Positions 1 to 64,000 of a DNA stretch of 64,000 nucleotides are shown here, one piece after another (position 1 is the first letter of the stretch; every line of letters begins with the position of its first letter). The DNA lies in NCBI RefSeq assembly GCF_025698545.1, contig NC_068570.1:54393924-54457923 (forward strand), in the 5' to 3' direction. Position numbers and translations under genes: made by a program. The DNA comes from Gossypium raimondii (lineage: Eukaryota; Streptophyta; Magnoliopsida; Malvales; Malvaceae). A model generated the notes under the pieces. The model did not search any database. It saw only the letters and a list, made by a program, of their open reading frames with translations, and had not been told where the DNA came from.

Positions 1-1852
1 CGCAATAGCTGACTTCTTGGTAAGTCAAACAACGGAGGAATACGAGCCTTTGAGATTTGATTTCCCAGATGAAGATTTGATGTGCATTTCAGAAAAAGAG
101 GGCGAGTCATCAAAAGAGAAGTCATGCAAGATGAGCTTTGATGGTGCATCAAATGCATTGGGGCATGGGATCGGAGCAGTCTTAGTGTCAACTGAAGGGG
201 ACCACTACCCGCTTACTGCCAGATTGAATTTCTTCTGTACCAATAATATAGCAGAGTATGAAGTTTGCATCATGGGGCTTCGTGCAGCTATCAGGAGGAA
301 AATTGAAATTTTAGAGGTACACGGGGACTCAGCATTAGTCATTTATCAAATTCGCGGAGACTGGGAAGTAAGGGATTCAAAATTAGTCAAATATCGCGAT
401 CTGGTGACAGAATTGGTCAAAGAATTCAAAGAAGTGACTTTTAACTATTTTCCACAAGAGGAGAACCAATTGGCTGATGCCGTAGCCACCTTGGCTTCGA
501 TGTTCAAAGCAAACAGAGAAACTGAGATAATGCCTATCCAAATGAGAATATATGAGACCCCCGCACACTGTTTTAGCATTGAGGAGGAGTCAGATGGATG
601 ACCGTGGTTCCATGATATCTTGGAGTACATCAAGAATCAAAGGTACCCCGAGCGGGCAAACGAGAATGACAAAAGAACAATCAGAAGAATGGCTATTGGA
701 TTTGTTCTTGACGGGGATATTCTCTACAAAAGAGGAAAATATCAAGTGCTCCTGAGGTGCATGGACGTTGTTGGAGCTAGAAAGATACTTGAGGAGGTTC
801 ATGAAGGAATTTGTGGAACGCATGCTAGTGGTTTCACCATGGCCAGGCAGATTGTGAGACTTGGTTATTACTGGCTGACGATGGAAACGGATTGCATTTG
901 CTATGCATGAAAGTGCCACAAATGTCAAATTTATGGCGATAAAATTCACGCAGATCCGTCGCCCCTTCATGTCATGACTTCTCCGTGGCCTTTTTCTATG
1001 TGGGGCATGGATGTTATAGGGTCAATCTCCCCGAAGGCTTCTAATGGGCATCGATTCATCTTTTTGGTTATAGACTACTTCACAAAATGGGTAGAAGCCA
1101 CTTCGTTTGCTAACGTGACAAAGGCTGCAGTCTGTAGGTTCTTAAAAAAGGAGATTATATGTCGATATGATCTGCCTGAAAGAATCATTTCAGATAATGC
1201 TTTAAATTTGAACAACAAGATGATGAAATAAGTATGTGAGCAATTTTAGATAAAGCATCATAATTCTTCGCCCTATCGCCCGAAGATGAACGGAGCAGTA
1301 GAAGCAGCTAATAAGAACATTAAGAGGATTCTCGGGAAGATGACTGAGACATATAAAGACTGGCACGAGAAGCTACCATTCGCTTTGTACGCATATCGCA
1401 CCTTTGTATGAACGTCTACAGGGGCAACTCATTTTTCTCTGGTCTACGGGATGGAGGCCGTTCTGCCTATCGAAGTAGAGATCCCATCCCTACGTGTCTT
1501 GATGGAGACAAAGTTAGAAGAATCAGAGTGGCTTCAAGCTCGATATGATCAGCTAAACCTTATTGAAGGGAAACGCTTGAAGGTAATTTGCCTTGGACAG
1601 ATGTACCAGAAAAGAATGATCACGGCCCATGATAAAAAGGTGCGGCCAAGAGAATTTTGCGAAGGGGAGCTGGTACTAAGAAAGATTCTCCTGATACAGA
1701 AGGACTTTCGAGGAAAATGGTTACCAAATTGGGAAGGGCCATACGTTGTAAAAAAGGCATTCTCAGGAGGAGCTCTGATTCTCACTGAGATGGATGAGAA
1801 AGAATTACCTAATCCAGTGAACTCAGATGATGTGAAGAAATATTATGCCTAA
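1..1852 (+). pseudogene. Ty3/gypsy pol 3' part: archaeal-type RNase H and integrase, broken
   Basis: This is the 3' part of a retrotransposon pol gene in one reading frame (from position 17), entering from outside the window. About 134-490 encodes an RNase H fold of the archaeal type found as a second RNase H in Tat/Ogre elements (SFDGA, NNIAEYE, GDSALV, ADAVATLAS, giving the D-E-D-D residues). About 620-940 holds the integrase H2C2 zinc region. About 970-1330 is the integrase core, with D in GMDVIG, D in IISDN and E in GAVEAANK all present. About 1450-1850 is the C-terminal region (GMEAVLPIEVEIPSLR). In-frame stops lie at 599-601, 908-910, 1229-1231, 1247-1249 and 1409-1411. No frameshift was noticed. 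The enzyme is therefore dead, and the breaks are point changes. Assignment to the Tat lineage is by motif memory. Confidence 0.9.
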
Positions 1853-1897: not shown

Positions 1898-2812
1898 CAA
1901 GAAAAAAACAAAAAAAAGAAGAAAAACATTAAGATGAAAACCCGAAAAGGGCGTCTTAATAAACAGAAAAGATTAGGATGAAAACCTGAAAGGGCATCCT
2001 AATGAAACAGATTCGGACTTAAGGAGCAAGACGACCTGAGCGGGGAGTCGAATGGCGAGATTACAATATTTGAAGCATTCTCAGAAGCTCGAAATCTTCT
2101 ACACAGGAAGCCATGCTCGAAAAGATCATTGACAAAGAAACATGGAGAAGTTCATGCGTTGGATAACTAGAGCATTCATGGCCATTGGATTCACTTTCCT
2201 TTCTTTACGATGCTTTCTTTATTTGAACTATTCCTTGTCAATTTTCTTTGTTTGTTGTTTTTGAAAAGAATATGAATGTGAGGTATTGCTTTCATGCCTA
2301 CTTTGCCATTTCTTCATACATCTCGTGTTTGATTCATTTAAATGATAAATAGTAAGATGACATACTCTAAACAAAAGGAATGTTGAACATTACCTGGATG
2401 AGAATGTGACAAGTACAAGGGCCCCAAAGCATGAACAAAGTTCAACAAAGGGGCATGAGTGTGGTATACGAAAATGTAGATTACTCACAGAACTTGAGGA
2501 TGAGTACAAAATTGGAGAGAAAAGTCAAGAATTGAGGAAATGAATGCGGACCCTCAGGAAAATCCAAAGTGAGGCACGTGACAAACAGCTCAGGGTGCAT
2601 TGCATGATCATGTAGACACAAAAGCATTTAGGACAAACATGTGCATATCATAATAACATCATAAATGACATATACAGGTATACCAGTAGAGCAAGGAATA
2701 CTGGGAGAAAGCTGCACAGAATCAATGATGAAGAAGGCTTTTAGCTTTACCAGATGTTTTTTGAAACCCTGTTTCTTTCAAGAAATATTTTTCACTTTCT
2801 GTTTTTTTCAAA
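1853..2812 (+). other. Retrotransposon 3' untranslated internal region
   Basis: Sequence between the pol stop and the tandem repeat array. It begins with an A-rich tract (1850-1925), then two similar hairpins (1928-2003, separate entry), then about 800 bp in which no gene was recognised. The short open frame at 2665-2859 runs into the repeat array and has no recognisable homology. Confidence 0.6.
1928..2003 (+). repeat. Two hairpins with GAAAACCC...GGGC core
   Basis: Hairpin a (1928-1960) has arms ATTAAGATG/CGTCTTAAT, a one-sided AAAA bulge on the 5' side, then CCC-GAAAA-GGG. Hairpin b (1972-2003) has arms ATTAGGATG/CATCCTAAT, the same AAAA bulge, then CCT-GAAA-GGG. The 9-bp arms differ between the two, yet both pair. 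The same architecture recurs at 23234-23721 in another element. Function is unknown. Confidence 0.7.
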
Positions 2813-3560
2813 TATCAACTCATAATACGAGAGGTGAGTTGAACCTCGGGTCACGCTGAAGTATTTTTAATTTCGGTCTTTTTTTAAATCAACTCATAAT
2901 ACAGAGGTGAGTTGAGCTTCGGGTCACGCTGAGGTATTTTTAATTTATGTCTTTTTTTAAAAATCAACTCATAATACAGAGGTGAGTTGAGCCTCGGGTT
3001 ACGCTGAGGTTTTTTTAATTTATGTCTTTTTTTTTTAAATCAACTCATAATACAGAGGTGAGTTGAGCCTCGGGTCACGCTGAGGTATTTTTAATTTATG
3101 TCTTTTTTTAAAATCAACTCATAATACAGAGGTGAGTTGAGCCTCGGGTCACGCTGAGGTATTTTTAATTTCGGTCTTTTTTAAAATCAACTCATAATAC
3201 AAAGGTGAGTTGAGCCTCGGGTCATGCTGAGGTATTTTTAATTTTTGTCTTTTTTAAAAAAATCAACTCATAATACAGATGTGAGTTGAGCCTCGGGTCA
3301 CGCTGAGGTATTTTTAATTTCTGTCTTTTTTTTTTAAAAATCAACTCATAATACAAAGGTGAGTTGAGCCTCGGGTCACGCTGAGGTATTTCTTTTAAAT
3401 TTCTGCTTTTTTTCAAAAAAATCAACTCATATTACGAGAGGTGAGTTGAGCCTCGGACCATGCCGAGGTATTTCTTTTAAATTTCTGTTTTTCAAAAATC
3501 AACTCATATTGCTAGAGGTGAGTTGAGCCTCGGGCCACACGCCGAGGTATTTTCAATTTC
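2813..3560 (+). repeat. Tandem array, about 11 units of about 70-85 bp, each with two inverted repeats
   Basis: Each unit contains CAACTCA...TGAGTTG (about 10-12 nt between the arms) followed by CCTCGG...CTGAGG (a 6-nt spacer in most units), then a T-rich spacer. The last two units read CATATT instead of CATAAT and CCGAGG instead of CTGAGG, which turns a G-T pair into G-C. The array lies between pol and the 3' LTR of the same gypsy element. Tandem repeats in this position are a known habit of Tat/Ogre elements. Confidence 0.85.
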
Positions 3561-3619
3561 TGTTTTTCAAATAAAAAGAAAATTTTTGGATAGTCGAACA
3601 AAATTCAGTGCTTTTAAGT

Positions 3620-3664
3620 CTTTGCTCTATCCCTGTTTCATAGCGATGAGCAAAGAGGGGCAGC
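3620..3664 (+). promoter_or_regulatory. Polypurine tract with abutting 36-nt hairpin
   Basis: The purine run AAAGAGGGG followed by CAGC ends directly at the LTR start TGTAAT (3665), so it is the likely plus-strand primer. The 36 nt at 3620-3655 form CTTTGCTC/GAGCAAAG arms around an inner stem (ATC/GAT, a C-C mismatch, then CTGT/ATAG pairing). The 3' arm overlaps the first bases of the polypurine tract. The same layout is present at 26063-26107. Confidence 0.75.
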
Positions 3665-6100
3665 TGTAATCACTGAATTTTGTCCGGCTCGATTTCATTT
3701 TTAAAAAAAAAATTCAAAAAAATTCAAAAATAAAAATTACATCTTGACCCCTAATATTTTGTAAATTACACTTGGGCCCCTAAACTTTTTAGAAATTACA
3801 CTTTAGCCCTATATTTTCCTAAAATTGTATTTTTACCCCAAAAACTTTGCGCCCTCTACAATTTAGTCCTTCTAGACTAGTCAAATCACCCAATCGGCAG
3901 CCGAGCTACTCCAGCAGCCTCCCTAGGCCATGATTGCTCTAATGCCACCTGCAAATAAAGAGGAAGAAGACAAAATTGGGGGGTTAAAAAAGAAAAATTG
4001 AAAAGAAGAATGGGGGGCAAGCAATAAAAAAAAGAGCAAACAACAGAAGCAAAAAAAATTCAAAACAGCAGCAGCTCCTTCCGTCGCACCAGCGCCACCG
4101 TGCCCACCACCGCAGCACCACCATCGCCTACACTTAGCAAAGCAAGCATGAATAAAAAAAAAACAACAAGCAAAATCCAAAAGAAAAAAGAGAGAAAACC
4201 TAAAAAGAAAGAGTCAAAGAAGCAGCAGCCAATGGCCGAATTTAGAGGAGGGGAAAACGCTTACCTTTGAGCCGTCGGCCACCGAGTGAGGAGAGAAGCC
4301 GAGGACGACCACAGCGGAGTTGCTTTCGACTTAAAGGGGGTGGCCGAATTACAAAAGAAAGAGGAGATAGAAGAAAGAGGAGAGGGAAGAAAGAAAAGAA
4401 GAAAGGAAGAAAATGAAAAAGGGAGAAAGAAAAGGGGAAGAGGGGAGCCATCCATAGCCACCGAGGGCGGATGAGATCGGCGCAAGTGACAGCGACGGCG
4501 TGGAGCTAGGGGGCGACCCGAAGAAGAAGAAAAAAAAGAAAGAAAAAAAAGAGAAGAAAAAGAGAGAAAAAGGGAAAGAAAGAAGAAAAAGAAAAAAAAG
4601 AAAAATCAACAGTCGGGTCAACTTGACCCGACCACCCGACCCGACCCGACCCGGGTCCGATCCAAACTGCAGCAGCCCCCAGCAGCAGTTCAACAGCAGA
4701 CTGAATTAGGCCCAATAGCAGTGACAGCTCAAGCAGCAGAAGAAAGGAAATAGCAGGCCTCTAGCAGACCCAGTAGCGCAGGCCCAACGCAGGCCCAGCA
4801 GCAGCAAGCCTCCAGGCTCAGCAGCAGCAGGCCGAGCAGGTTCCCCCAGGCCCAACACCCAAGCCCGAATTCGGCGGCCCAACTCCTAGCAGACCTAAAA
4901 AAAAAGAAAGGAAAAAAAAAGAAAAGGGCTTTTTGGTAATTTCTTGATCTTTTTAATTTAATTCATTTATTTAAATATTGCCTCATTTAAATTAAATTAG
5001 CATTTTTTTAAAATAGTTTTTTAAAAAGATAATATTATTATATTCATTTTACTTGCATGGTCAAAATAAAAAAATGAAATAAAAAAAATTATTTTAATGC
5101 ATAAGGCAACAGACCTATTGAACACCAAGCCGTTGATTTCATCGCTATGTTGGGTGAATATCGATGGCTCGTGTTAAATACGGGACGTCCTTCTAAAAAT
5201 CAAAATATATATAAAAAAAATCTTCGTGTTTTTAATAAAAATTCTCGTGTTTTATTAGAATCCTGATTTAATATTAAATTGAATCGGTTTGACACTAATT
5301 CGACGATTTCATCACCATGTAGGGGTGAACATCATCGATTCGTGTTAAATACGATACGTTTTTTTAAAAATAAAATTAAAAAATTCGTGTTTCAAATCTT
5401 CGTATTTTCGAATTTTACTCGTATTTAAAAATTTTCGACTTTTCGTATTTTCAAGAGTTTTCGTGTTTCAAAAGAAATTTCGCGTTTTAAAAGAAAAATT
5501 TCAGATTTCAAAATTTTCGTGTTTCCAAAATTTTGCGTATATTAAAATTTTCGCGTTCTCAAAAATTTCTCGTGTTTCAAAAAATTGTCGTGTTTCGTAA
5601 ATTTTCGTGTTGTAAAAATTTTCAAGTTTTCAAAAATTTTCGTGTTTCTAAAATTCTCTTGTTTCAAAAAAATTCTGTGTTTTCAAAAAAAAAATATTGT
5701 GTTTCAAAATTCTCGTGTTTTCAAAACAAGAGATTCTCGTGTTTCAATCGAATCACGATTAAATATTAAATTGAACTCGTATTTTTGAAAATTAAGACAA
5801 CGCGCGTTTAACGAGATACCAATTTTGGGCGTCGCGAGGGTGCTAATACCTTCCTCGCAGCAGAATCGACTCGAACCCTAATTTTCTCTGGATTTTGACG
5901 TGGACCTAAAATTGCCTCTTTTTTAGAAAAGTTTTTTAAAGAAAAATTTCTTCTAAAAAGAGATTTTTGAAGGTGTCCGATCACACCTAGAAAAAAGATC
6001 GGTGGCGACTCATTTTTTTTAAATAAAATCAAAACTCCATTTTCAAATTTTCAATAATTACTTCGACTAGCGCCCGTACCGAAATTTTTAGGTCGCTACA
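3665..6100 (+). mobile_element. 3' LTR of the first Ty3/gypsy element
   Basis: The LTR runs from TGTAAT after the polypurine tract to CTACA at 6100, about 2436 bp, with TGTA/TACA ends. It contains an A/G-rich low-complexity part (3950-4620), a GC-rich stretch with repeated ACCCGACCCG (4615-4665), an AT-rich part, a TTTTCGTGTTTC-rich part (5370-5760) and the box ACCAATTTTGGGCGTCGCGA near 5818, shared with the other LTRs of this window. The 5' LTR lies outside, so neither target duplication nor LTR divergence can be judged. Open frames inside are low-complexity. Confidence 0.85.
5370..5760 (+). repeat. Short degenerate repeat TTTTCGTGTTTC inside the LTR
   Basis: A dozen or more imperfect copies of TTTTCGTGTTTCAAAA-like units follow one another in the downstream half of the LTR. 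Spacing is irregular, about 16-40 bp. It is probably a slippage product, and no coding meaning is seen. Confidence 0.7.
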
Positions 6101-8130
6101 AAACTAATCTTAGTTGTTGATGTAATTCTGTAACAACTCGTTTTCAGTGGTTTCAGGATCACAATTTCGACCAGTGAGTCAAAAAATATTAATATTTACA
6201 AGGTTATTAGAGTGTTGTATTAAAATTTGCTTTAGAATTGTAGCGTTCGGTCAGTTAATTAAGGAAAAAAAAACTAAATCGTAAAAGTTGCAAAATTAAT
6301 CGTTATTAATTTATATTTGCTAAATCATTATAAAATTTTAATTGGAGGGTTTTATGAGGCAAATAGACCATGCTATCTATAATCACAGTTTAGGTATGAT
6401 ATTTTATGAAATTTAAGTTATTTTAAAAGGGTAAAATAGTCATTTAATAAATAAAACATAAACTAAAACAAACAAAGGTTACCATCTTCCTCATTTTGAA
6501 TTCACCAACCAACAACCACCATTGACAAGGGTCTAATAATTAGCTAAGCTTGATCTTCTTTCACGCAAGTCATTTGGATACTCATTTTTAGTAATTTTTA
6601 TTTTTTTAGATCGTTATAGCTTAATCTAGTTATTACATGGACTATTTTGTAAAACTGTTATAGGTTTGAAAAATCACCATTGATGAATTTGATGTTTTTA
6701 TATGTTAAATGGTTGAGCTTGAAGAGTTGTTTTGATGTGAGATTGTTTTGTAAAGTGAATTTGGTTAATTTTAAATTTAGGGACTAAATTGATAATATAT
6801 TGAAATTAGCATGAAATCCTTGTAAAATTTCATTGATTATGGGCTTTAAATGAATAAGAGTAAATTTAGTTTGCATGCTTTGGGCTTGATTGTGATAAAT
6901 GTGTAAGTTTCGATTTTAGGGACTAAATTGAATAAAAGGAAAAAAATTTAAGGTAATAATGTAAAATGTTATTAAAAGGTCAAGTGCATGTATTTAAGTA
7001 TTTTAAGGTATTTGAAATGGTTAATTGAGTTAAATTATTATATAGATCATGAAACAGACCAACCAGTAGATAACCGCGGGGAGGGGAAAATTACGGAGTA
7101 ATCCTTGGTGTGGTGTTTGTAGCTGTTTTGTTTAGGTAAGTTTGTATTAGGTTTTTTCTGTTTATAAAATGTTTGAATTGAATTATGTATGAGTATAAAT
7201 GTATAAGTGTTGGTATGGTTTTTTGAGAAAAGTATTGATGTGGAATCGAGGGATTGAAATGTAAAGTATAACAATTATACGTGTTTGAAATGAATTATAC
7301 TATTACAAGGTATGAAAATGACCATGTTGAATATGGTGTTATATTATAAAGATGGAAAGAATATGGGAAATGAGTTAAGGCCCCTGTGAGCTTAGTGAAT
7401 GATTAGGATACAACTGACATGTCATTAGGGTTTATCAGGCACTATGTGTCGGTGATTACGGTTATTAGGTACTTTGTATCGGTGTTACAGCTATCAGACA
7501 CTTTGTGTTGGCAACATTGAGTAATGATTAATGTTCCAATTGTCAACTTGTGTGAGCAAAATTATCCCGAGTATCTGAAGTTAATTTACTATAGTTCCCC
7601 AGAGAAAATAAGATAAAGAAATGAATGGAAATGTTGAGTATGTGTTACATATGAATCATGTGCTTATCATGTTAATAGATTGTATGAAATGATGTACTAA
7701 CCTATTTGGTTATGTTGTGAAAGGTGTAAGAGATTATGGAATGATATGTATGTATGTTAATTACATTAAGTAAATTATGAAATATCAAGTACGTTGTGTC
7801 TAAGTTTTATACGAACTTACTAAGCTTTAAGTAAGCTTATCTCGTTTTGTTTTTTTCCTTGTAGATTGTCGAATTTGCGCAGTCGATTGAATCGTCTTGG
7901 GAAATCACACTATTCGTCAACTCTTTTGGTAGCTATTTACTTATTTTGGTCTGGTTATAAATGGCATGTAAATAGGTTAATGACAATATATGTACAAAAG
8001 TAATTTGATTATGTTTTGTGCCAATTTGAAGATGAACTATGTGTGTAAGGATGCATGCAAACTATAATGGTTGTTTTGGTGGTTTGTGGCTTGTGTTGGT
8101 ATAAGCATATTTGGTATAAGCCATATGCTT
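6101..8130. other. Unclassified AT-rich stretch, probably old repeat
   Basis: No gene was recognised. A TGTAACAACTCG at 6129 looks like an LTR start, and imperfect repeats of CACTTTGTGTCGGTGTTAC-like units lie at 7440-7510. No matching LTR end, target duplication or coding domain was found. Open frames are short and lack family motifs. Confidence 0.4.
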
Positions 8131-8139
8131 CAACCTTTC

Positions 8140-9360
8140 AGAGTAATAGCTGAGGTCCTCAGTACACAGTATAAATAGATATGGAGACAGTAGATCTCCC
8201 TGTTATAAATCCCAATGCGATGAAATAGGCCCAACTTTCCAACCGTTCAGAGAGATTAACTAATTGTAGTCACACACAACATGATCCAATTAACCCAGCA
8301 CTCATCAAACCCCATTTTGCTCATTATAAACTATAAAAAGAACCCCGTCATTCTGGTTATAAGCCTTATAGATATCGATCTTCATAGCAACTTCTCCTTT
8401 CTGCTCTCTCTCCCTATATTTCACAAATAATGGATTAGCTCAAACGCAATTAGAATATTATTTGTAATTAATCATCCTGGAATAAAAATCGTCAATAGTA
8501 ACTTTTTTTAACTAACTAGCAAGGACCTTCACAAGAATCTTGTATAGAACATTGCAAGGAGCTATAGGCCTAAGATCCTTCCTAGAAGTTGGCTTATCCT
8601 TCTTTATGACAAGCACTACAATAATCTCGTTTAAGCATTCCCGGAAATAGTTCACTCCAGCCAAGAGCAACACTGCACATACACATCCTGTCCAACACTA
8701 GGCCAACACCGTTGAAAAAATGTAAGATTCAGACCATCTGGCCCCGATGCTTTGTCCAGGTGCACCAACATAACCGCCTCCTTAAACTCTCAAGTCTCAA
8801 ATGCAGCAAGCAAGGATGCATTGTGGTCCGCATTGACAGAAGGCGCAAACTCGACATATGCAGAATAATCATAAGAGATTGATGCAACAAATAGATCCTA
8901 AAAGTACCCTTCCACAATCACACACATACCATCATCACTGGTACAAGGATTACCTGATCCATCTAGCAACATAGATACTTGATTAATCCAACGACGCTTT
9001 GATTCTTGGGCGTGAAAATACTTGGTATTCGCCTCCCCATGACACAACCATAAAACCTTAGCCCTTTGACGCCAATACACAGCCTGTTGAGAGAGCAAGA
9101 AGTTAAGTTGGGAGCGCAACTCCAGTAAAGATAAATCATTAACCCAACAAGCTTGCGCGATGTTATACGTCGCTTTAGATCTTGGATACGAGGTGCAAAG
9201 TTAGTAGCGGCTGACTAGTGCTAGTGCCAAAATGCCTCACTACAAGCATGCAGACGCTCAATTATACCAACTGAAGCAGAATCGTTCCAACAACCTGACA
9301 CCACTCCACTAAAACCTCCTTCGAGAGCCATGAGTTTTCGAACTTAAACCTCCTCATACG
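8140..9360 (-). pseudogene. LINE (L1-type) reverse transcriptase relic
   Basis: On the minus strand the translation contains, in order, FKFENSWLSKE (near 9355), YWRQRAKVLWLCHGEANTKY with FHAQESKRRW (about 9085-8980), DKASGPDGLNLTFFQRCW (about 8755-8700) and QGDLLSPYLFILCTEDLS (about 8200-8150). These are the linker and reverse transcriptase motifs of plant L1-like non-LTR retrotransposons. They fall in different frames and are separated by stops, so the relic is old and dead. The YxDD region and endonuclease are not visible. No poly(A) tail or target duplication was identified, so the ends are approximate. Confidence 0.85.
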
Positions 9361-10035
9361 ATAACAAGCAAAACAAGCTTATTATCTGACGTTTCACTGA
9401 CCAACTTATATAACTTGAAGAAAGGAAATAATTGCATCCAAGACAAAGGTGCAAACCAACCGTTCCACCACAAAAGAAGCAGTTCATAACTAGTTTTTCT
9501 CACCCCCAATAAGAAAACAAACTTCTGTATTACATGAATTTCGATTAAATATGTAATGTCATACGAAAATTTTGATTTTGTGTGTAATTTTATAAATGAA
9601 ATTTTGATTTCATTCAATTTTCATAAATCATTAGTAACATTATCGAATTAGTATCATTTTGCATTAATATATTGTATACGTAAATAATTATATTAATCCA
9701 ATATGAAAGTAAATATATATATTCATTAATGAATATAATTACACAAAGTCAAAGTTCATATATCAAATTACATATTAAACTAAAATTAATATTAAACTAA
9801 AATTAATGTATAATTTAATATTTATCCCTTTAATTAATAAAAAATTTAACTTGGGCATTTAAAGTTACCCAAAATATCTTGTTTTTATGTTAATTGGATC
9901 AAAATTTGTACCTTAACTTGACATTACCATGGAGATCAAACCTATGGATCGGATCCTTATCATCATCCACAATCTATTTTGGAACTTTTAGATAAAATGC
10001 CCTCCATTATTGGGTTTAAAATCTAGTATAAATTA
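9361..10035. other. AT-rich intergenic sequence
   Basis: No gene, RNA or clear element was recognised. The open frame at 9354-9617 (minus) begins in the LINE relic and shows no family motif in its remaining part. Confidence 0.5.
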
Positions 10036-10406
10036 GGGAAAATTACTCCGTTAGCCGGTCCGGTTTAAACAGTGGTTACTTTTTTTTGTCTTCACTCAAT
10101 TTTTTTTTGTTAATTTGGTTAGTTCAAAAGAAGAAAATGGTCAAATTGGCCACTCCGTCATTAAATGGCGTAATAGAAAGACTAACGATGTATTTTCACA
10201 TATTATTTTGTGGTGACCAAAATAATAATGACCCCTATTTGAAATGGTTAATGTGGAAATGCACCGCCAGCATTCCGTTACAAGTTGAAGATGGAGCGAC
10301 CAATTTGATTAATTTATTGTTTAGAGTGACAAAATTGATTAAAAAATTTTAGAGTAACCAAAATAAGAACGACTTCTATTAAGAATGACTAACGAATAGT
10401 TTACCA
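10036..10406. mobile_element. MITE-like repeat with degenerate terminal inverted repeats
   Basis: The left end GGGAAAATTACTCCGTTAGC and the reverse complement of the right end, TGGTAAACTATTCGTTAGT, are similar. Inside, phrases such as 'ggttactctaaa' recur in opposite orientation on the two sides. Flanking 9-mers (TATAAATTA and ATAAAATTA) match only in part, so the Mutator-like assignment is weak. The 88-codon frame inside is not considered a gene. Confidence 0.4.
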
Positions 10407-10633
10407 ATAAAATTATTTTTTTAAGTCTGATTAAAAATTAATTACTTATTAATATCTAATTAAAAATATTAAATTTACATTTTATCATATAAAAATATAG
10501 ATATTACTACAACCTTACCTGTAATTAGTTTTGCGGTGCATTTAAGATTAGCGTAGTTCACGTAAATTGACACATCTATCGGCTCTCTAAACGAGCCGAC
10601 AGCTGACTCATCACTTCTTATAATATCATTATT

Positions 10634-11068
10634 GGTCAAATTCTGTTAGTAGTCTATGTACTATATGAAAATTATGAATTTAGTTCTTATACTTTAATTT
10701 CATCAATTTTAATCCTTATACTTTAAGAATTTTGAAATTTCAGTTACTATCTAATTGGGAGCAATTAAATCTATTAGATTAAATTCTACTATTTTTCCCG
10801 TACAGCGTAAGTTGCAGATTTAATCCATATTCTTCAATTTAAATTCATTAACTAAAATTACATGACTTTTATGTGTTTATTATGCAAAAATAACAAACAG
10901 ACATGACAGGATATATGTGATAATATGTTTGCAATATAAAATTTTGGAATTATTTGATCAAAATTCTTATTTTATAATCCAAAAAATATAAAGATTAATC
11001 AAATTAGAGTACATAGATTAAAATCTATAATTTACTCATAATATAGGGACTAATATAACAATTTAACC
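10634..11068. mobile_element. Mutator-like MITE upstream of the RopGEF gene
   Basis: A 435-bp non-coding element whose ends are inverted (GGTCAAATTCTGTTAGTAG and the complement of CTAATATAACAATTTAACC). It is flanked by 9-bp direct repeats with one mismatch, ATCATTATT (10625-10633) and ATGATTATT (11069-11077), as expected for Mutator-type insertion. A related copy lies at 32948-33321. It ends 276 bp before the RopGEF start codon, so it is in the likely promoter. Confidence 0.7.
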
Positions 11069-11344
11069 ATGATTATTTTGAACCTATTTTGATAGACCTT
11101 TTCTCACAAAATGCAGCTTTTAAGAGAGACGTTAAACCAATGGCACGTGCCCCATCTGTTCTTCTTCGTCTTCAGTTCAAAAAATCAAATCCTTTTAGCC
11201 CACTCACCATCTCTCACTGTCTCAGCAAATGTCTTCCCTTTGTAACTCAAAGCTTTTAGCCTCTTTTTGGGGTTTCTGTTTTCAAAGATAAAGAAAAGGG
11301 TAGGGTGTTTTTTTTTTTTTGTAAAGTTAGCAAAGTATTTAAAT

Positions 11345-22890: not shown

Positions 22891-24880
22891 GCTGATAAAG
22901 AAATCTGCACAACAGCACGATGACAGAAATTTGCAGTAGGAACGATGCATTCCTTTGTCGAGGCAACGCCTTTCTCGTGGAGTCAGCATAGTTTTGCCCA
23001 TTTGAAGTCGAGTTTCCATCCCTTTAAGATGTTTTCTTGTCGTAGTTGCGCCCCAAAAGGCTCTATGAAGGAATTTGATATCAGAGAAGATTCTTCGAAA
23101 GGAATAACAGGGACTTGCCTAATCCCAAGAGTTTAAATCCAATTCAAAAAGAAGAAAAATAAATCAAAATCAAAGTCAAAATGAAAATAAAAAAGAGAAA
23201 AGAAAAAGAAAAAGGAAAAAGAAAAGGAGAGGCCAGGGCGAAAACTTGCAAAAGGCGCCTTGTGACCGAAGGTGGTTTTGAGTTGAAAACCCGAAAGGGG
23301 CGACTCAAATTTCGAGTAAAATGGGGGGTGAACATCACCATTATCGAAGGTTTCTATTGGGCACTGCTTCGCTATTGAGATCATTAATTACTTCATCAAA
23401 TGAATAGAGGCTACTGCATGCGTCAATGTCATCATATGCCGATATAGAACTCCAGAAAAGATGGTATTGAAAATTGCATTGAACTTGAATGACAGCACGA
23501 TAGCTAAGGGCTGTAATCAGTTCAAAATCAGACATCACGGTTTGTCACCGTACACAATGGATTTCAAGAATAAAAAAACAAAAAAAAACAAAAAAAGATG
23601 AAAAATGAAAATGAAAAATGAAAAATGAAAACGGAAACGGGGAGGCTAAGGGGAAAACCCGCAAAGGGCACCTTAGGCAAAAGGGGATTTGAGTTGAAAA
23701 CCCGAAAAGGGCGGCTCAAATATTGATTAAAGTGGGGCATGAGGTAATCAAAGCAACTCGAATCTTGACCAAACAAGGCATATGGTGATCTTTCTATGCC
23801 TGAATCAACAGGAAAGGATAGGCGACATCTTGGGGCATCGACAGAGCACTGTAGATCTCCTAAACACATGTCCAACTCAAAATGATCTTTAGAAAGTTTG
23901 TACAGAGAAGTTCAAGCTGCGATATCTGGGGCACCCAATTCTCATATTATTTGTTGTTCTTGGAATACTTTTTCCTTTCCAAGATATACATTCCCAATTA
24001 ATTTCTTTGTCATCCTTCTTTACTATTTTCGATAATTTGTTCTTTCGAGCTATGCTCAGAACCAACTTTATTCTTATCCATTGTTATGACCTTTTTGCAA
24101 ACATGTTGCATTGGAATAATGATTAATGGACTAATAAAACTTTCACAAAGGAAGTTTTGCATATTACTCTGAAAAGTTTCTAAATAATATAGGAGCCTGA
24201 AACAGGACTATTGTTTAGAACACACCAATTTTAAAGGTTGGAAATCTGAGAAGGAAGAGGCTGAATTTAGACTTTCTCTTTGAATTTTGTTGTCGAATGC
24301 ATTGGTTGAACAAAATGATAAGTTGACGGGTTAATGACAAAGCTTAAATGAACAAGCAAGCAATGATCACCAGGCAAGAGGAGGAGGTTACCTCGGAGAA
24401 GAGAGCCTTCATCTGCGCATAAGTCTTTGGTACGACACCCTGTAAAGGGTGTAAGAAACCAGAACGGTTCAGATCTTATATCCCCGAATTGTGTTAAAAG
24501 AGGACTGAGGAAAAGTCACATATTTCTACCCTTGGATTACAGTGGGAGAATGATGGTATAAATTCTTGTGCCCCAGTGGATTAAACTTTAAGGTTTACAA
24601 TATGAGGCAACCTGGCTAATTGTTTCTTCAGAAAAGCCAGTCATGCAAGAAGGCGTTGTAGCACGTCAGTCGCAAAGCTTTAATAAACTTCGAGTAATGA
24701 AAACCTAAGCGAGATCATTCTCAAAATAAATAAATAAATAAATAAAATTCTGTATTCAAGCAAACACCATTCACACATGTCTAGTTAGGAGCATTTGATT
24801 CATTTTGATCATGCCATCCTAATCATTAGGCATAATTAGGTTCATTATACATGTCATGTTCCCCAGAGAACAGATCAGTG
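22891..24880 (+). other. Non-coding 3' internal region of the gag-only element
   Basis: No gene was recognised. It contains A-rich tracts (23140-23225, 23575-23635), each followed by hairpins of the GAAAACCC...GGGC family (23234-23721), the same order as at 1850-2003 in the first element. Open frames at 22945-23875 are short and lysine- or phenylalanine-rich and look accidental. Confidence 0.6.
23234..23721 (+). repeat. Four more hairpins of the GAAAACCC...GGGC family
   Basis: Units: 23234-23262, arms CAGGGCG/CGCCTTG, inner CTT-GCAAA-AGG; 23277-23309, arms TTTGAGTTG/CGACTCAAA with one extra G after the inner stem, inner CCC-GAAA-GGG; 23646-23676, arms CTAAGGGG/CACCTTAG with one mismatch, inner CCC-GCAAA-GGG; 23687-23721, arms ATTTGAGTTG/CGGCTCAAAT, inner CCC-GAAAA-GGG. 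All have the one-sided AAAA bulge. Arms differ widely but still pair, counting G-T pairs. Confidence 0.7.
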
Positions 24881-24894
24881 AATATTTCAGATCT

Positions 24895-25955
24895 TATCTC
24901 CCTGAGGTTACAGTGGAGCAGATCGAAGATGGCGAATCTTATCTTCCTAAGCAGTAGTGAAGCAGATTTAAGCCACCAGTCCTATCTCCCTAAGCAGTAG
25001 TGGAGCAGGTCGAAGATTGTAGATCTTATCTCCCTAAGCAGTAGTGGAGCAGATCGCATCAAGTCTTATCTCTCTAAGCAGTAGCGGAGCAGACAAAAGA
25101 AACCAGTCCTATCTCCCTAAGCAGTAGTGGAGCAGGTCAAAGATATTAGATCCTATATCCCTAAGCAGTAGTGGAGCAGATCAAAGACGACGAATCTCAT
25201 CTTCCTAAGCAGTAGTGAATCAGATTTAAGCCACCAGTCCTATCTCCCTAAGCAGTAGTGAAGCAGGTCAAAGATATTAGATCCTATCTCCCTAAGCAGT
25301 AGTGGAGCAGATCGAAGACGGCGAATCTCATCTTCCTAAGCAGTAGTGAAGCAGATTTAAGCCACCAGTCCTATATCCCTAAGCAGTAGTGGCGCAGATC
25401 AAAGACGGTGAATCTCATCTTCCTAAGCAGTAGTGAAGCAGATTTAAGCCACCAGTCCTATCTCCCTAAGCAGTAGTGGAGCAGGTCAATGATATTAGAT
25501 CCTATCTCCCTAAGTAGTAGTGGAGCAGATTGAAGACGGCGAATCTCATCTTCCTAAGCAGTAGTGAAGCAGATTTAAGCCACCAGTCCTATCTCCCTAA
25601 GCAGTAGTGGAGCAGGTCAAAGATATTAGATCCTATCTCCCTAAGCAGTAGTGGAGCAAGTCGAAGATTGTAGATCTTATCTCCCTAAGCAGTAGTGGAG
25701 CAGATCGCATCAAGTCTTATCTCCTTAAGCAGTAGCGGAGCAAACAAAAGAAATCAATCCTATCTCCCTGAGCAGCAGTGGAGTAAGTTGAAGATTGTAG
25801 ATCTTATCTCTCTAAGCAATAGTAGAGCAGATCGCATCCAGTCTTATCTCCCTGAAGTTACAGTGGAGCAGACTAAGACCACAAACATCGTCCCTCTGAA
25901 GTTGTGGCAAAGAAGATTGAAGCTTCAAGTTAGACCTCTCTGAAGCGTAGTGTAG
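24895..25955 (+). repeat. Tandem array, about 24 units of about 43 bp, each a small hairpin
   Basis: The unit core is CTCCCTAAGCAGTAGTGGAG, which pairs as CTCC-CTA-agcag-TAG-t-GGAG. Most copies belong to a higher-order pattern of about three units (about 128 bp). Variants include CTTC/GAAG, CTCT/AGAG and CTG/CAG pairs. A few units are mismatched (for example near 25155, 25205, 25253 and 25376). The array lies just upstream of the polypurine tract, as in the first element, though its sequence is different. Confidence 0.85.
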
Positions 25956-26062
25956 TGGATTGAAGCAATAGGACACAGTGGATTAGAATGGGGCTACTTG
26001 AAGAAGAAAAGCACCAAGAAGTCAAGACTCAACGAGACCGGGAAAAATTGGTCTTTCTTAGT

Positions 26063-26107
26063 CTTTGCTCTGTTCTCGTTACACGACAACGAGCAAAGAG
26101 GGGCAGC
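26063..26107 (+). promoter_or_regulatory. Polypurine tract with abutting 36-nt hairpin (gag-only element)
   Basis: The tract AAAGAGGGG plus CAGC ends at the 3' LTR start (26108). Positions 26063-26098 form CTTTGCTC/GAGCAAAG arms with a bulged T, then GTT/AAC, a C-C mismatch, TCGT/ACGA and a 3-nt loop. Length, bulge, mismatch and loop size equal those at 3620-3655, while several inner pairs differ. Confidence 0.75.
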
Positions 26108-27696
26108 TGTACAAGCCCAATTTGCCCGGGCCCAACAACCAAATAAAACCCAAACCAATTAAACTAACCCACCAGCCTAACTAACCCAATACCCTTCAGC
26201 CCAAACCAATTACAACCCGGGGCCCAAACTAAAAGACTAAGCCCAAATAACTCAAACCCAACAATGAGTCAAACTAGGGTTTCAACTTTTCTGAAACCCT
26301 AGACGCTGCCCCTTTCTTCGGACCTTTGGTCTCCCAAGCGCTGCATGCTTCAGACCTTTGGTCTTCTACCACCACCGCCTCTGTCCCATCCGTCGGCGCC
26401 CATCAAATGCCTGCAAAAAAGAAAGAAAACAGACAAGTAGCAAGGGAATAGAAAAATGAGCAAATCGGCTATATAAAGGCCGAACCACATTCTGTATTTC
26501 TCTCTTTTTTTTTACAACATTTTCGAATACAAAAATAAGCAGGTTAAAAGAGCAAAAAAGGTGGATACCGGTTTTTATTTTTTTTCTTGTGTTTATCTTA
26601 TTTCAATTTATTTTTTTATGTTTGTTTATATTTTTTTTACAACCCTATTTAACGAAAACGAAACAAACGGGGAAGAAAATACCTGTTCGCAACGAAAACC
26701 GGTGTCGGAGCCCATCTTCGCCTTCACCGGAGTCGAACGGGGAGGGTTTCCTTTCTTTTTCTCTCGGTTCCATGGCTGAGAGGGACTAGCCCTCAGGGAC
26801 GCCTTAAGGAGAGGGTTTTGAAAGGCTGTTTGCGCATCTCGACCACATCACGAAAGCGGTCTGGCGAAGGCCAAGGGCCAAGGGCCGGATACCCCTGAGG
26901 AGAAAAGAGAGAAATTTTTTAGGTTTTAAAATTTTTGTAAAAATGACAGTTTTCAAAATTTTTTGGGTTAAATATTGTTTTCCGAACGGCATCGTTTTGG
27001 CAACAGGGGTCAGGTGCCAAAACGACGCCGTTTTGGCCCTGACCCGTGACCCGACCCGTTGGCCCTCAGGATTCGCGTGTTTCTGCGGTGAATGGGCTAT
27101 TTGCGCGCAAGGCCCTTCCTCTTTTGAGCTATAGTGCAATCGGGTCCTTGTGGTTCTTATATTTTTGGCCTTATAATTATCTGATTGTTTCCTTTTGGTC
27201 CGAATTGAAACGCTGTGTTTGGGGGCTGGGAATATTGCACGGTCGATCCCTTGTCCCTTAAACGCGTTTCATTTTGGCCCCGAGCCATCTTCTTTGTTTA
27301 TTTGCGATTCAGACCCCAGAGTTCTGTTTTGAGTTTAAATTAGTTCCTGTTTTGTTATACTCTTGCTATTAAATTAATTTATTTCGATAACGTTACCATT
27401 ATTTTTACTATTATTATTTTATATATTGTTATTATCATTATTTTGCCTATTATTATATCTTTGTAATTTTAGATTTAATTACATATATATACATTTCGGA
27501 TATATATATAGATACATACTTATATTCTTATATTTTGTGATTTATATTCGTGCATGCATATTTTGCTTTCATAAATATATATATATATACTCTTATATAT
27601 TTTTAAGATTTTAAAATGTAATCTCCTTTATACATGTTCATAGTTCACAAGCATATATATATATATTTTTATATATACTTATTAATTCTAACATAC

Positions 27697-27728
<32 letters not shown>

Positions 27729-28739
27729 TTATCATTTTATTCATTACCATTATTTCCTTTGGTATACATTTATCTATTTATCTATTTACATGCTCATCAT
27801 TATTACTTATTTAAATGCTTAATTTTTTATTTGTGTATACATTATTGATTTCTTTTCATTATATATTTGCGCTTTATTTATTTATCTTTTATTATTTGCC
27901 TGTATTATTTTGTTTGCATTATCATCATTATTCTTTTACATTCATTTCGGATTCGTCAAAAAACAAAAAATTTTAAAATGAAAATAATACTCGATATTTA
28001 GAATTTTCGAGAATCGAGCCCTAACGTATTGGGTTCCGATTTTCCTCGTTGAATCTAAATAATCGAGATTACTCTTTTAAAAATAATAAAAAGCTCATTA
28101 TCGGGAATTCAATATGTTGTATCCTAACGCATTGGATATGACACGTTGTTTTCCTGATATGAGAATTTTTTCTAAAAAATTCTAAAGTAAGCCAATGTTT
28201 TGCGTTTGGAAATTCGAGAAAACATGCCCTAAGGTGCTGGGTGTCGTTTTTTCTCGTTCAACCAAATAGCTTAATATCCTTCCCAAAATTTCAAAATAAG
28301 GCAATGTTTTGCGTTTGGAAATTCGAGGAATGTGCCCTAATGTGCTGGGTTTTGATTTCTCGTTTAACCAAATTGCCAAATATCCTCTTAAATTTTAATC
28401 CATGCCATTTGAGTTTTTTTCTAAGGATCGTATTTTAAATTTCTTTAAAGTTTTCAGTTTTTCGACACTAAGACATTAAGTAATCAACTAGGTACCAATT
28501 TTGGGCGTATCGAGGGTGCTAATCCTTCCTCGTGCATAACCGACTCCCGAACCCATTTTTCTGAATTTCGTGGACCAAACTTGTTGTTTTAATAAAATCA
28601 AATCGTTTATTAAAAACAACCACTTTTCGAGGTGATCCGATCACACCTCATCAAAAAGGATCGGTGGTGACTCCCATTTTTGTTTTCATTTTCCAAAACC
28701 TAAGTCGACCCCGTTTTCCATCAAAAAATGGTGTCAACA
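26108..28739 (+). mobile_element. 3' LTR of the gag-only element
   Basis: A 2632-bp copy of the 5' LTR, ending at the target duplication GGAGC. It differs by scattered substitutions and by much shorter TA microsatellites (27574-27589 against 18343-18398). The TATA inverted repeat is at 26465-26483 and the palindrome AAAACGACGCCGTTTT at 27019-27034. Confidence 0.92.
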
Positions 28740-29369
28740 GGAGCACTACAAAAACATATAGGCAAAATCTTACATGATATTCATTTGTGTATTCATATTA
28801 TATTCGCATCGAGTAATCGTACCTGGTGGAGTTTACGTACTCAAAAATGTTGCGACCGTCAATCAAGTTAAAACAAGATGCAGGCAAAGGAAAAAGGCTA
28901 GAATAGTCAATATTGTTGCCCTGGTCTCGAGCCACGGTCCCAGCTGCACCAGCCAAAAGGGCTCCTATCCCGTTAGTAAGTATCGTATCACAAAGAACAA
29001 TCTTACCCTTCACCAAATTTTTATCCAATGAATTCGGAAAACAGAATCTGCACTTCAACGATTGGATCATTAAAATATTAATAGTATAAAGAGATACGAA
29101 AAGATAAAATACTTTAGTTTTACACATGTGTAACTGGATCAATTAAAAAAGAAAAAAAAAGGCTAAGTTTATGTTACCTCGATGATATAGTAGATGTTGA
29201 AGTAGTGTTTGCTGCGTCTCCGCCATAAATCATAGGGTACGTTTTATTCTTGAGATCAAATGTATTTATTGATACTCCCTACGTACAATCATACGTGTAT
29301 ATATGTATATGATAGCTATCATTATAAATCATAAAATTGATATATGATTACAAATCATGTATGTATTTA

Positions 29370-38880: not shown

Positions 38881-41674
38881 GCAACAGGGTTGAGCGGATG
38901 AAGAAGAAGAAGCAGTCTGCTAATGAGTGATGAAGAAGAAGCAGTTGTGGCGGCCGAAAGGAAGGAAAAAGTTATGGAATCAGAAAAATCAGAAGAAGCA
39001 ATTAGGAGGGTAAAACAGGGTAGAAGAAATGGGGAGAACTTAATACGCAAAGACAAAAGCAGCTTTTCATCCGGAATAGAAATCGGTGGATTTTGGGGAT
39101 TAGGTCTGTAATGGATTAGACCTGTAATAACAATACACTGAACCAAACAATGGATTAAAGGGGTATTAAGTGGGGCCCACCGATTAGGGGTGTATTGGCT
39201 ATGCCAATACACCCAACCAAACATGCTCTAAGGGTTAAAGTTGACATTAAAACGCCTTTTGAGTACTAATTCTTAATTAATAAGCAATAAATAAAATTAA
39301 AATCTACATTTTCAAAGGTTAATATGTTAAGGGTAGACTATATCATTAGTCACTAAATTATAGATAAGTTTTCGTTTTAGTTACTGAACTATTCAAAAGT
39401 TTTCATTTAAGTCGCTGGACTCTTAAAATCGGTGCTATATGGTTTTCTCTATTCGCACTGCCTACACCAATCAAAAGTTCTCTTTCCATTCTCTTTTGCA
39501 GTTTGTTTGTTTTCATAAAACAATTTTAGACATCATGAATCTGCGAACCAAATTTCAAATAGCTTTTTTTTCTGATCTTTGATACTGACCGTCAGATCAA
39601 CTTGGACTTGAAGTATATTCTTCTACTCATAGATGGGTACTAATCCATCATATCGATCATCATTTGGAGCTTGTTGGTGGAACTTTAAAAAAAAAACCCT
39701 AATAGCTTAGTAACTTGAATAAAAAATTTTGAACAGTTCAGTTGTTGACACCATTTTTTAAATAAAGCGGAGTCGACTTGGATTTTAAAAATGAAAACGG
39801 AAACAGGAGTCGCCACCAATCCTTTTTGATAAGATGTGATCGAATCACCTTGAAAAGTGGTTGTTTTTAATAAATGGTTTAATTTTATTAAAACAACAAT
39901 TTTGGTCCACGAAATTCAAAAAACGGGTTCGGGAGTCGGTTACGTACGAGGAAGGATTAGCACCCTCGTAACGCCCAAAAATTGGTACCTAGTTGATTAG
40001 TTAATGTCTTAATGTCAAAAATTGAAAACTTTGAAGAATTTTAAAAATTCGATCCTAAAAGCTTTTGAACAATATGGGTTGGAATTTAAGATTCTCTTGT
40101 TCCGAAAGCATATCACATCCAGCACATTAGGATATGATATTTTAAACTCTCGAAACCAAGATCACCTTATGGTTTCCAAAACCCATACTTTGAAACTTTA
40201 AGAGGGTATTTGGCTATTTGGCTAAACGACAAATCGAAACCCAGCACATTAGGGCACGTTTTCTCGAATTTCCAAACGCAAAATATTGCCTTGGAAATTG
40301 TAAAAGGATATTTGGCTATTTGGTCGAACAAAGAAATCGAAACCTAGCACATTAGGGCACGTTTTCTCGAATTTCCAAACGCAAAATATTGCCTTTATTA
40401 TTTTTTAGAAAAATCCTCATTGTACAGCCCAATATTTGCCCAGCCCAAAACCCAATAAACCCAGACCTGGAGCCCAAATTGACCCAACAAATATAAGCCC
40501 AAAAACTAGCCCAAAGAGCCCAAATCTAACCCTAACAACAAAACAAAATTTTCAAACCCTAGGTGCGGCCGCACGTCCCATCGCCGTGCCTACTCTCTGC
40601 TCCACCGCCCGCCCACTTGCCTTGCCTCGTCAAGGTACCTGCAAACAATAAAAGAATAGCAGTACCAACAGCAGAAGAGGGAGAGAAACAAACAAAAAAA
40701 AGAGAGTGGAAAAATGGCTATAAAAGGCCATTCAAAACAAATTGTAAGGGGTTCGGCCTCTATTTGATAAAGAACAGAAATAAAAAAGGTTCAACATTTT
40801 GTTCAGTTTTCTTTTTTCTTTTGCTTACTTTTTTTATTGTTTTTTTTAAAGTTTATTTTTTTCTTTTTTAACCCGAAAACATAAAGAGGAAAACACCTTA
40901 CCTGTGCCGCGTCAGAGGAGGAGGAGACGAGCAGTTTCTCCTTATTTTCGGGCCTTGGGCTCATCTTTCTCGAAGTTCCGCCTTGGATTCGTGTCCTAAA
41001 GGCGTTTAGCTTCAAAAAGGAACCGAAAAGGTCCAGTTTTGTACTTCTGGCCGCCGCCCACGGCGTTGCTACGGCGGAGGTGCGCCGGAGCCTTCGTCGG
41101 ACCATGGCCGGAGGAAGGACCGAGAGAGAGAGAGAGAGAGAGAGAGCTTTTCTCTCTGTTTTTTAGAAAAAATGAGGAAACTGATTTTTTTTAGTTTTTT
41201 TTATATATTTATACTAATTAAAAAATGGCGTCGTTTAGCTATAAGGGTCAGGCGCCAAAAGCAGCTGCTTTTGGCCTGACCATGTGATGTTTGACCACAG
41301 GGGAGGACCGCGTGTTTTCACTAGAGGGGATATTTGCGCCATAGGCCCCTCCTCCTTTGTGGCGTGTTCGATGCGATCCTTTTTTGATTTTTGATTTTGG
41401 CCACATAGTTTTTCTTTTGTTTTAATTTGGTCCCGACCATGCACACGCGCCTCACTGGAACGACGCCGTTTGATCGGTGAGGGAATATTTCCCTTTTCGG
41501 TCTCTTCCCTTTCACGCGTGTTGTGATTAGGTCCTTTTAGTGTTTTTCTCTTTTAATTTGACCCTAAACTTTATTTATTTTTAATTTAATCCCTAATCTA
41601 TTTTTGTAGTTATTTTTCTACTAAATTAATTGTTTAAATATTATTAATGCTATCATTATTAATTTTGTATTAGC

Positions 41675-63125: not shown

Positions 63126-64000
63126 TAAAATATGTATATCATATATTATTTTATGTTATTTTATAATCCACATATGTATCTCTTTACATTTAATTGTATT
63201 TACTACTTATTTATTTCATTTTCTTTATTTTTTGAATAAATGTTTTAATTTATTTGTTTATATATTGTTATTTTATATGATTGTAAGTATGACTTTTATT
63301 TATTTTATATTGTTGCTATTGCTCGTATCATTTTTATACTTTTGCGTACATTATGATTTTATCATGCATAACAACAATGTAATTGGCTTTCGTATTTTTT
63401 TTCTACGATTTTCGTATTTCATTTTATTTGATATAACAATGTTGTTTTGAATAAATAATATTTTGTGTTTAGATTTGAGAAAATCGTACCCTAACTTACT
63501 GGGTTTCGATTTTCACGATAAACGCAAATGCACGAATCTTTTTAAACTTGAATTCTAAATAATCTCGGGTTTTAAAAACAAAATCGCGTCCTAACTTACT
63601 GGTCGTGATCTCAATTTTAAATTCGAGATAGCTAAAATATCTTTTAAACAAGCATTTTTGGGCGTATTTTGTCCTAACTTACTGGATATCTTTTAAATCT
63701 CTAAAATTCGAGATATTGTGTCCTAACTTACTGGATATGATTTTCTTTCTCGAATAACATGAAATATGCCCTTTCTTTGAAAATTTTCAACGTTTTAATA
63801 CAAGGATCGTATTTTTAAATTTCTTTAAAGTTTTCGGTTTTTCGACACTAAGACATTGAGTAATCAGCTAGGTACCAATTTTGGGCGTATCGAGGGTGCT
63901 AATCCTTCCTCGTACGTAACCGACTCCCGAATCCGTTTTCTGAATTTCGTGGACTAAACTCGTTGTTTTAATAAAATTAAACTGTTTATTAAAAACAACT
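61682..64000 (+). mobile_element. LTR of a third gypsy element, running past the window end
   Basis: It starts TGTACAGCCCAAATTT after an AT-rich intron and shows the family marks: a TATA box between GGC and GCC (62018-62031), GAAACGGTGCCGTTTT (62556-62571), AT microsatellites (63030-63125), four hairpin units with loop TAACTTACT (63480-63750) and GGTACCAATTTTGGGCGTAT (63871-63890). By comparison with the others it lacks roughly the last 100-150 bp. Whether it is a 5' LTR or a solo LTR cannot be decided. Confidence 0.88.

Follow-up and report, generated by a model that had tools for sequence, protein, structure and literature searches.

The stretch of Gossypium raimondii DNA analysed here (64,000 nt, hereafter the window) contains the 3′ ends of two long terminal repeat (LTR) retrotransposons, elements 1 and 2, which we take to be Tat-type Ty3/gypsy elements. 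At each 3′ end the polypurine tract (PPT) ahead of the 3′ LTR is associated with two nested helices: an inner hairpin, to which the original prediction had drawn attention, and an additional outer stem that closes over both hairpin and PPT. The two junctions are made up as follows.

3598..3610, plus strand: element 1 outer stem, left arm; a 13-bp perfect core that pairs with 3671-3683 (the ungapped arm is 3592-3613)
3620..3655, plus strand: element 1 inner hairpin, 36 nt (sequence and folding)
3652..3661, plus strand: element 1 PPT, AAAGAGGGGC (exact match)
3662..3664, plus strand: element 1 spacer AGC, 3 nt, between the PPT and the TG of the 3′ LTR
3671..3683, plus strand: element 1 outer stem, right arm, in the 3′ LTR (sequence and folding)
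26038..26055, plus strand: element 2 outer stem, left arm; 78% complementary, ungapped, to 26113-26130
26063..26098, plus strand: element 2 inner hairpin, 36 nt (sequence and folding)
26095..26104, plus strand: element 2 PPT, AAAGAGGGGC (exact match)
26105..26107, plus strand: element 2 spacer AGC (GCT at 19534-19536 is its reverse complement)
26108..28739, plus strand: element 2 3′ LTR
26113..26130, plus strand: element 2 outer stem, right arm, which is nt 6-23 of the 3′ LTR (sequence and folding)

These are the only two exact matches to AAAGAGGGGC in the window (0.06 expected), and we take them to be PPTs from their position ahead of an LTR. No 5′ LTR was found for element 1, and the start of its 3′ LTR was set by analogy with element 2. 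A third candidate PPT at 61045 (2 mismatches) was rejected as not above chance, at least three such matches being found in 15 of 100 shuffles; the site adjoins or lies in an open reading frame (ORF) that we take to be subtilase-like.

Both inner hairpins lie exactly where they had been predicted, and folding bore out the proposed structure in both elements: 8 bp, a bulged T, 3 bp, a C-C mismatch, 4 bp and a triloop. The two-sided base differences listed between the two copies are also real. The folding energies are −13.8 and −14.8 kcal/mol for elements 1 and 2, where shuffles average −4.1 and −4.7 (z = −4.78 and −4.80), and none of 200 shuffles was equally good for either element. AAAG is common to the 3′ arm of the hairpin and the PPT. 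The outer stem was found by folding 103 nt around each junction; as RNA, the two stretches have z scores of −4.87 and −3.32. Its arms are unrelated between the elements (ACAAAATTCAGTG/CACTGAATTTTGT and CCGGGAAAAATTGG/CCAATTTGCCCGG). Since the right arm is in the LTR and the left arm is internal, only the 3′ junction is able to form the outer stem.

An exact search of both strands of one G. raimondii assembly (751 Mb, 281 contigs) gave 1,940 copies (945 + 995) of the PPT core AGAGGGGCAGCTGT and 1,487 perfect copies (723 + 764) of the full GAGCAAAG arm. The hairpin arms with 20-nt spacing matched 1,672 and 1,665 times on the two strands, compared with 0 and 1 for a reversed control; this motif is nearly palindromic, so the real sites number about half of the strand counts. 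Our main set comprises 112 sites: 100 consecutive core sites on contig C1, first-listed among the 1,940 (L001-L070 and L101-L130), 10 full-arm sites (L131-L140) and the two window copies. A replication set of 40 sites on C2-C10 was picked from 100 listed of 151 sites in which position 32 of the hairpin is not C; owing to this way of choosing, their 3′ arm is mutated there. Nucleotides 45-290 of the LTR form 72 BLAST clusters among the 112 copies, whereas the upstream internal sequence forms only 3, so that one internal lineage carries very diverse LTR starts (window 16872-17171 and 26105-26404, and the 112 genome sites).

The hairpin is retained almost throughout. At least six of the eight basal pairs are kept at 99 of the 100 C1 sites, with eight standard pairs in 66, seven in 28, six in 5 and four in 1. 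Changes at both positions 29 and 31 were found in 9 of the 1,940 core sites genome-wide (L157 and L161 included); L161, L186 and L187 read as hairpin-less and L184 as no LTR junction. In L161 (L161:1-203, C5:41777209-41777411) the inner hairpin is gone, apparently deleted between AAAG repeats, and the outer stem is kept. L001 (C1:2615095-2618114), one of the five C1 sites with six basal pairs, has a rearranged junction with a second hairpin ∼108 nt from the PPT and LTR-start sequence also upstream of the PPT.

A third family was found via the replication site L164. There were 131 candidates at first look, and all 39 scored relatives (82-92% identity) were fetched. The outer stem of this family (GGTGTCTAC/GTAGACACC) is unrelated to the other two; depending on the pair, 33 to 39 of the 40 copies have a standard combination, and both tiers fold in 33 of 40. 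The inner hairpin has the same architecture as in the other two families (in L190: 7 bp, 1×1, 4 bp, 1×1, 5 bp and a triloop) with several pairs different and a largely different sequence, of which the parts CTTTG/CAAAG and GTT/AAC look homologous to those of the other families. Decay of the outer stem is balanced here, with 16 G-U and 13 A-C among the six commonest combinations per pair.

Outer arms match their own partners better than those of other elements. At 104 of the 112 sites (8 element-1-group sites were set aside) the own-arm duplex reaches −22.6 compared with −19.9 for permuted arms (sd 0.29), which was equalled in 0 of 10,000 permutations, and likewise in 0 of 10,000 with 70 LTR clusters as units, although relatedness inflates these permutation figures. 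The replication set gave −22.42 against −20.35 (0 of 10,000) at 35 of its 40 sites, with 3 element-1-group sites, L161 and L164 set aside; keeping the latter two (37 sites) also gave 0 of 10,000. When an upstream-only tree was cut into clades, 181 of 10,000 permutations were as good at k = 13 and 3 of 10,000 at k = 40; clades of at least three members (k = 5) gave 166 of 10,000, and cuts at k = 1-4 gave no information. The signal sits at the family level, as expected if copies decay after insertion. Type-3 own arms reach −23.3 compared with −18.3 for a shuffled LTR start. Conservation along the LTR, measured on 70 cluster representatives, runs 0.80, 0.73, 0.69 and then 0.63 compared with 0.62 for shuffles, so it is at the shuffled level past nt 30; in line with this drop, the median end of the right arm is LTR nt 28. 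The outer stem would account for the likeness of the first ∼30 nt in otherwise unalignable LTRs, and it offers a way of finding 3′ LTR junctions that is independent of LTR sequence.

Read on the plus strand, outer-stem mismatches are skewed towards A-C (185, compared with 65 G-U; 48 and 12 LTR clusters respectively). We do not use this skew to choose the strand on which the stem acts, since swapped arms are skewed likewise and base composition suffices to explain it. The own/swapped ratios over four scoring schemes (0.66-0.83 for G-U, 0.98-1.32 for A-C) are no more than suggestive.

The original prediction had argued for selection on pairing from four inner pairs that differ on both sides between the two window copies. 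We assessed them with a tree-based null, a simplified version of an R-scape-type test, on two trees and 528 column pairs. Pair 10-28 shows recurrent double changes and ranks first of all 528 (GC 48, AT 41, AC 13, GT 5, other 5 at the 112 sites), with E = 0.84 and 0.79 on the two trees and 1.14 in a larger analysis of 145 of 152 sites (0 of 600 for its own columns), from which L001, L161, L164 and four sites with hairpin indels were dropped. Pair 12-26 is second among helix pairs (E 3.2-3.5), with no helix pair other than 10-28 near significance over all column pairs; it has one double change on one tree and none on the other (CG 7, TA 100 of 112). Pair 14-24 is standard in 55 of 112 copies and C-A in 54. 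Pairs 15-23 and 16-22 lie on CpGs in many copies, and their changes may be confounded by methylation decay; 10-28 is partly in CpG context. Of the four pairs, only 10-28 has recurrent double changes; 12-26 has at most one, and 14-24 is non-standard in about half of the copies. For the inner hairpin, covariation above phylogenetic background was not reached in this one-genome sample (best E ∼ 1), so that more had been concluded from the two sequences than the data can bear. Conservation of a structure at the PPT is nevertheless supported, mainly by retention, the third family and the outer stem and not by the four pairs.

Structures at PPTs have been described elsewhere; what we say of the papers cited here refers to the parts of them that were available. 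In a study of Ty1/copia elements, an inverted repeat around the PPT/3′ LTR junction was described for Sireviruses (arms of ∼28 bp) and for nearly one in two classic elements (∼19 bp); upstream PPT copies lack the repeat (Bousios et al., 2010; PMC2829016). As in our elements, the left arm is upstream of the terminal PPT and the right arm in the 3′ LTR, with PPT and attachment site between them; complementarity of this kind was found here, although at 29 of the 112 sites it does not stand out from shuffled sequence. The copia left arm always adjoins the PPT, whereas in the cotton gypsy elements the 36-nt hairpin intervenes; the hairpin-deleted copy L161 comes close to the copia layout. Sireviruses carry the PPT octamer AGGGGGAG, an AT/TG attachment site and several identical PPTs close to the 3′ LTR, whereas our elements are Ty3/gypsy with Tat order, have AAAGAGGGGC/AGC/TG and carry AAAGAGGGGC once per junction within the window. 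PPT-containing hairpins were noted, and a systematic search called for, by Benachenhou et al. (2013; PMC3601003); the parts seen give no plant gypsy example, and according to the abstract LTR models for plant Metaviridae could not be built. SHAPE (selective 2′-hydroxyl acylation analysed by primer extension) shows conserved RNA structure in HIV-1 and SIV at the PPT and central PPT, for which the authors doubt a role in priming (Pollom et al., 2013; PMC3616985). Within the tract an unpaired A-rich part precedes a paired G-rich one, and the parts seen have no such nested hairpin. In the RNA genome of Ty3, of the same superfamily, the PPT lies in a base-paired region, with pairings of lower predicted probability and, in the parts available, no outer stem with the LTR (PMC11381356).

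Among the open-licence papers listed, a literature search on PPT structure gave no description for Tat or Ogre, and one with the PPT string GAGGGGCAGCTG gave no paper that was relevant judging by its title or the start of its abstract. The parts seen of PMC11963269 and PMC10508981 mention no PPT structure, and those of PMC3465219 have LTR-end inverted repeats only. The statement in the original prediction that no description was known has to be restricted, since PPT-flanking inverted repeats had been published for Ty1/copia. New relative to this work are the gypsy lineage, the nested hairpin and the three sequence versions. Viral contigs gave no match to the PPT; two arm matches in them were read as chance.

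We propose, with a probability of roughly one in two, that Tat-type 3′ ends carry a two-tier cis-acting structure around the PPT whose pairing is selected and which acts in reverse transcription. What the sequences themselves show is the position, the retention, three sequence versions and an arm match that is better within than between elements; selection for pairing and action in reverse transcription are inferred. In the proposed structure, upstream sequence would pair with the start of the 3′ LTR, up to about nt 28. Within this outer stem would stand a hairpin of ∼36 nt, built of a basal helix, a bulge, a short helix, a mismatch, an upper helix and a triloop. Its 3′ arm takes in the opening bases of the PPT, while the remaining PPT and the AGC/TG attachment end would sit between the two helices. 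The structure may help to define where the PPT primer begins and ends, and hence the terminal AGC of the linear cDNA. For element 2 the cDNA ends would be symmetric, GGGGC/AGC/TGTA on the PPT side and CAACA/GCT before the stretch that resembles a primer-binding site (PBS), with the slashes marking presumed cut points. The site of action could be the genomic RNA during passage of reverse transcriptase (RT) and RNase H, or the minus-strand DNA after RNase H; the structure might shape RNase H cut sites as RT moves past or, alternatively, a folded minus strand might bound the PPT hybrid at both sides. The position at the PPT/LTR end in three families, together with the comparable copia repeat, favours plus-strand priming over any other function, and definition of the plus-strand primer would be the likeliest role. 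Retention in element 2 and in L231, for both of which tblastn gave integrase pieces only, would fit a signal served by proteins supplied in trans, through which such copies may have been mobilized.

Several results weigh against this proposal. All data come from one genome, and no single inner pair is significant on the tree null (best E 0.8-1.1). Swaps between nearest relatives (56 pairs, two trees) showed no preference for own sequence, either for hairpin halves (own better in 17 against 16 and 20 against 16) or for outer arms (27 against 22 and 28 against 21). No outer-stem column covariation was significant in a MAFFT alignment (best E ∼ 3), where register slips occur, and in types 1 and 3, each taken separately, permuted arms do as well as own ones. 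The arms distinguish modestly between types: the left arms of type 2 reach −20.5 on type-1 LTR starts and −18.8 on type-3, compared with −22.6 on their own (L001, L161 and L164 were dropped from this comparison). For 29 of the 112 sites, window element 2 included, a symmetric score of the outer stem stays inside the 99th percentile of shuffled scores, and only 17 of 40 duplexes in the replication set beat the 1% tail of shuffles. Minimum-free-energy folds of the 112 sites contain at least six outer pairs in 84, the inner arms in 75 and both in 51, and the third-family copies gain only a little over shuffles on folding (mean z −1.94, with 17 of 40 below −2). Simple exposure of the GGGG is not supported, its mean unpaired probability being 0.40 and above 0.7 at 26 of 112 sites. 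Finally, in the parts seen of PMC3616985, RNA structure is judged unlikely to modulate lentiviral PPT function.

The structure might instead have a different function in the genomic RNA (in packaging, nuclear export, stability or 3′ processing) and lie at the PPT merely as the LTR/internal junction. We consider this somewhat unlikely. The loop bases vary little, the C-C mismatch 13-25 is kept in 81 of 112 copies and the mid-helix bases vary, and a constant loop and mismatch with a varying mid-helix are typical of protein-bound RNA hairpins; the strong RNA folding of both 103-nt stretches would fit as well. The position fixed to PPT and LTR start in three families argues otherwise, as does the copia inverted repeat at the same place in the available parts of PMC2829016, but both speak for a role at the PPT only indirectly.

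Two further explanations dispense with selection for pairing. Correction of quasi-palindromes through template switching is known, and switching during DNA or cDNA synthesis could have copied arm onto arm. The left arm does read like the reverse complement of the LTR start, and the rearranged copy L001 and the hairpin-deleted L161 would be in keeping with such events; however, the arms retain mismatches and bulges and are not perfect copies, and keeping the hairpin at 99 of 100 sites needs selection or very frequent correction, which makes this origin improbable. It is very improbable, in our view, that shared descent and decay suffice, with a conserved motif self-complementary by chance and double changes that reflect a few ancestral events and CpG decay. 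Such an account would explain the tree-null E near 1, the missing sister-pair signal and the location of 15-23 and 16-22 on CpGs in many copies, with 10-28 partly so, but not different arms at the same place in three families, nor the own-arm preference that persists with LTR clusters as units and in the replication set.

A stronger version of the proposal can be formulated, which we regard as unlikely: in Tat elements purine sequence would not suffice to set the plus-strand primer, which would be defined by a two-tier nucleic-acid clamp, and recognition in trans would be of this clamp and not of the remainder of the LTR. Elements with only pol remnants and with unalignable LTRs would then stay mobile through the clamp, via an RT with two RNase H domains. 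Minus-strand cDNA may be where the clamp acts, as the plus-strand A-C mismatches would be G-T wobbles there, although swapped arms are equally skewed. How RT/RNase H chooses one short purine tract is a long-standing question, and PPT structure in copia elements, lentiviruses and three gypsy families of one genome suggests a common requirement.

The remaining features of the two elements are as follows.

2..1852, plus strand: element 1 fragments like an additional RNase H (aRH; RVT_3) and integrase, in separate ORF pieces (Pfam)
16870-16874 and 28740-28744: element 2 flanks, GGAGT and GGAGC respectively
16875..19533, plus strand: element 2 5′ LTR (TGTAC...CAACA)
19534..19554, plus strand: element 2 spacer GCT (3 nt) and PBS-like stretch
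20657..22228, plus strand: element 2 gag ORF, 523 aa stop to stop (Pfam Retrotrans_gag, 7.6e-11)
23347..23502, plus strand: element 2 remnant of integrase, 41% identical to element 1 across 64 aa

In element 1 the order is RVT_3 (9.5e-18) followed by rve (7.8e-07; 29.7 bits, slightly below the curated cut-off of 32.6), and parts further upstream fall outside the window. The pieces at 602-910 and 1412-1852 gave no Pfam match, and no RT domain was detected by Pfam in the ORF pieces submitted. We take RVT_3 to be the aRH. At the third-family loci L229 and L230, RT_RNaseH (Pfam) is followed by a stretch like the element 1 RVT_3 and then by integrase (INT), which is the Tat order RH-aRH-INT, and their aRH and integrase pieces are 46-83% identical to element 1. 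Angiosperm Tat elements (Ogre, Retand) have this additional RNase H between RH and INT, according to the parts seen of PMC6317226. For element 2, tblastn gave no aRH match and the integrase remnant is all that represents this order; for L231 it gave integrase pieces only and no aRH.

A tandem array of ∼75-nt units (2803-3486) lies close upstream of the element 1 PPT, and the array before the element 2 PPT (24853-25833) is unlike it, with steps of 44, 87, 127 and 131 nt. Stretches akin to the element 2 LTR end occur at 54702-54939, 63813-63999 and 39780-40395, one of them inverted; no PPT of this type (up to 2 mismatches) seems to go with them within the window. Rfam matches to L190 were limited to three sub-threshold microRNA families (best E 0.11, 20.1 bits compared with a cut-off of 95). 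At gathering score, Rfam gave two tRNAs and nothing else in the window; both are on the minus strand (14213-14284 and 14348-14419), with equal scores and 135 nt apart.

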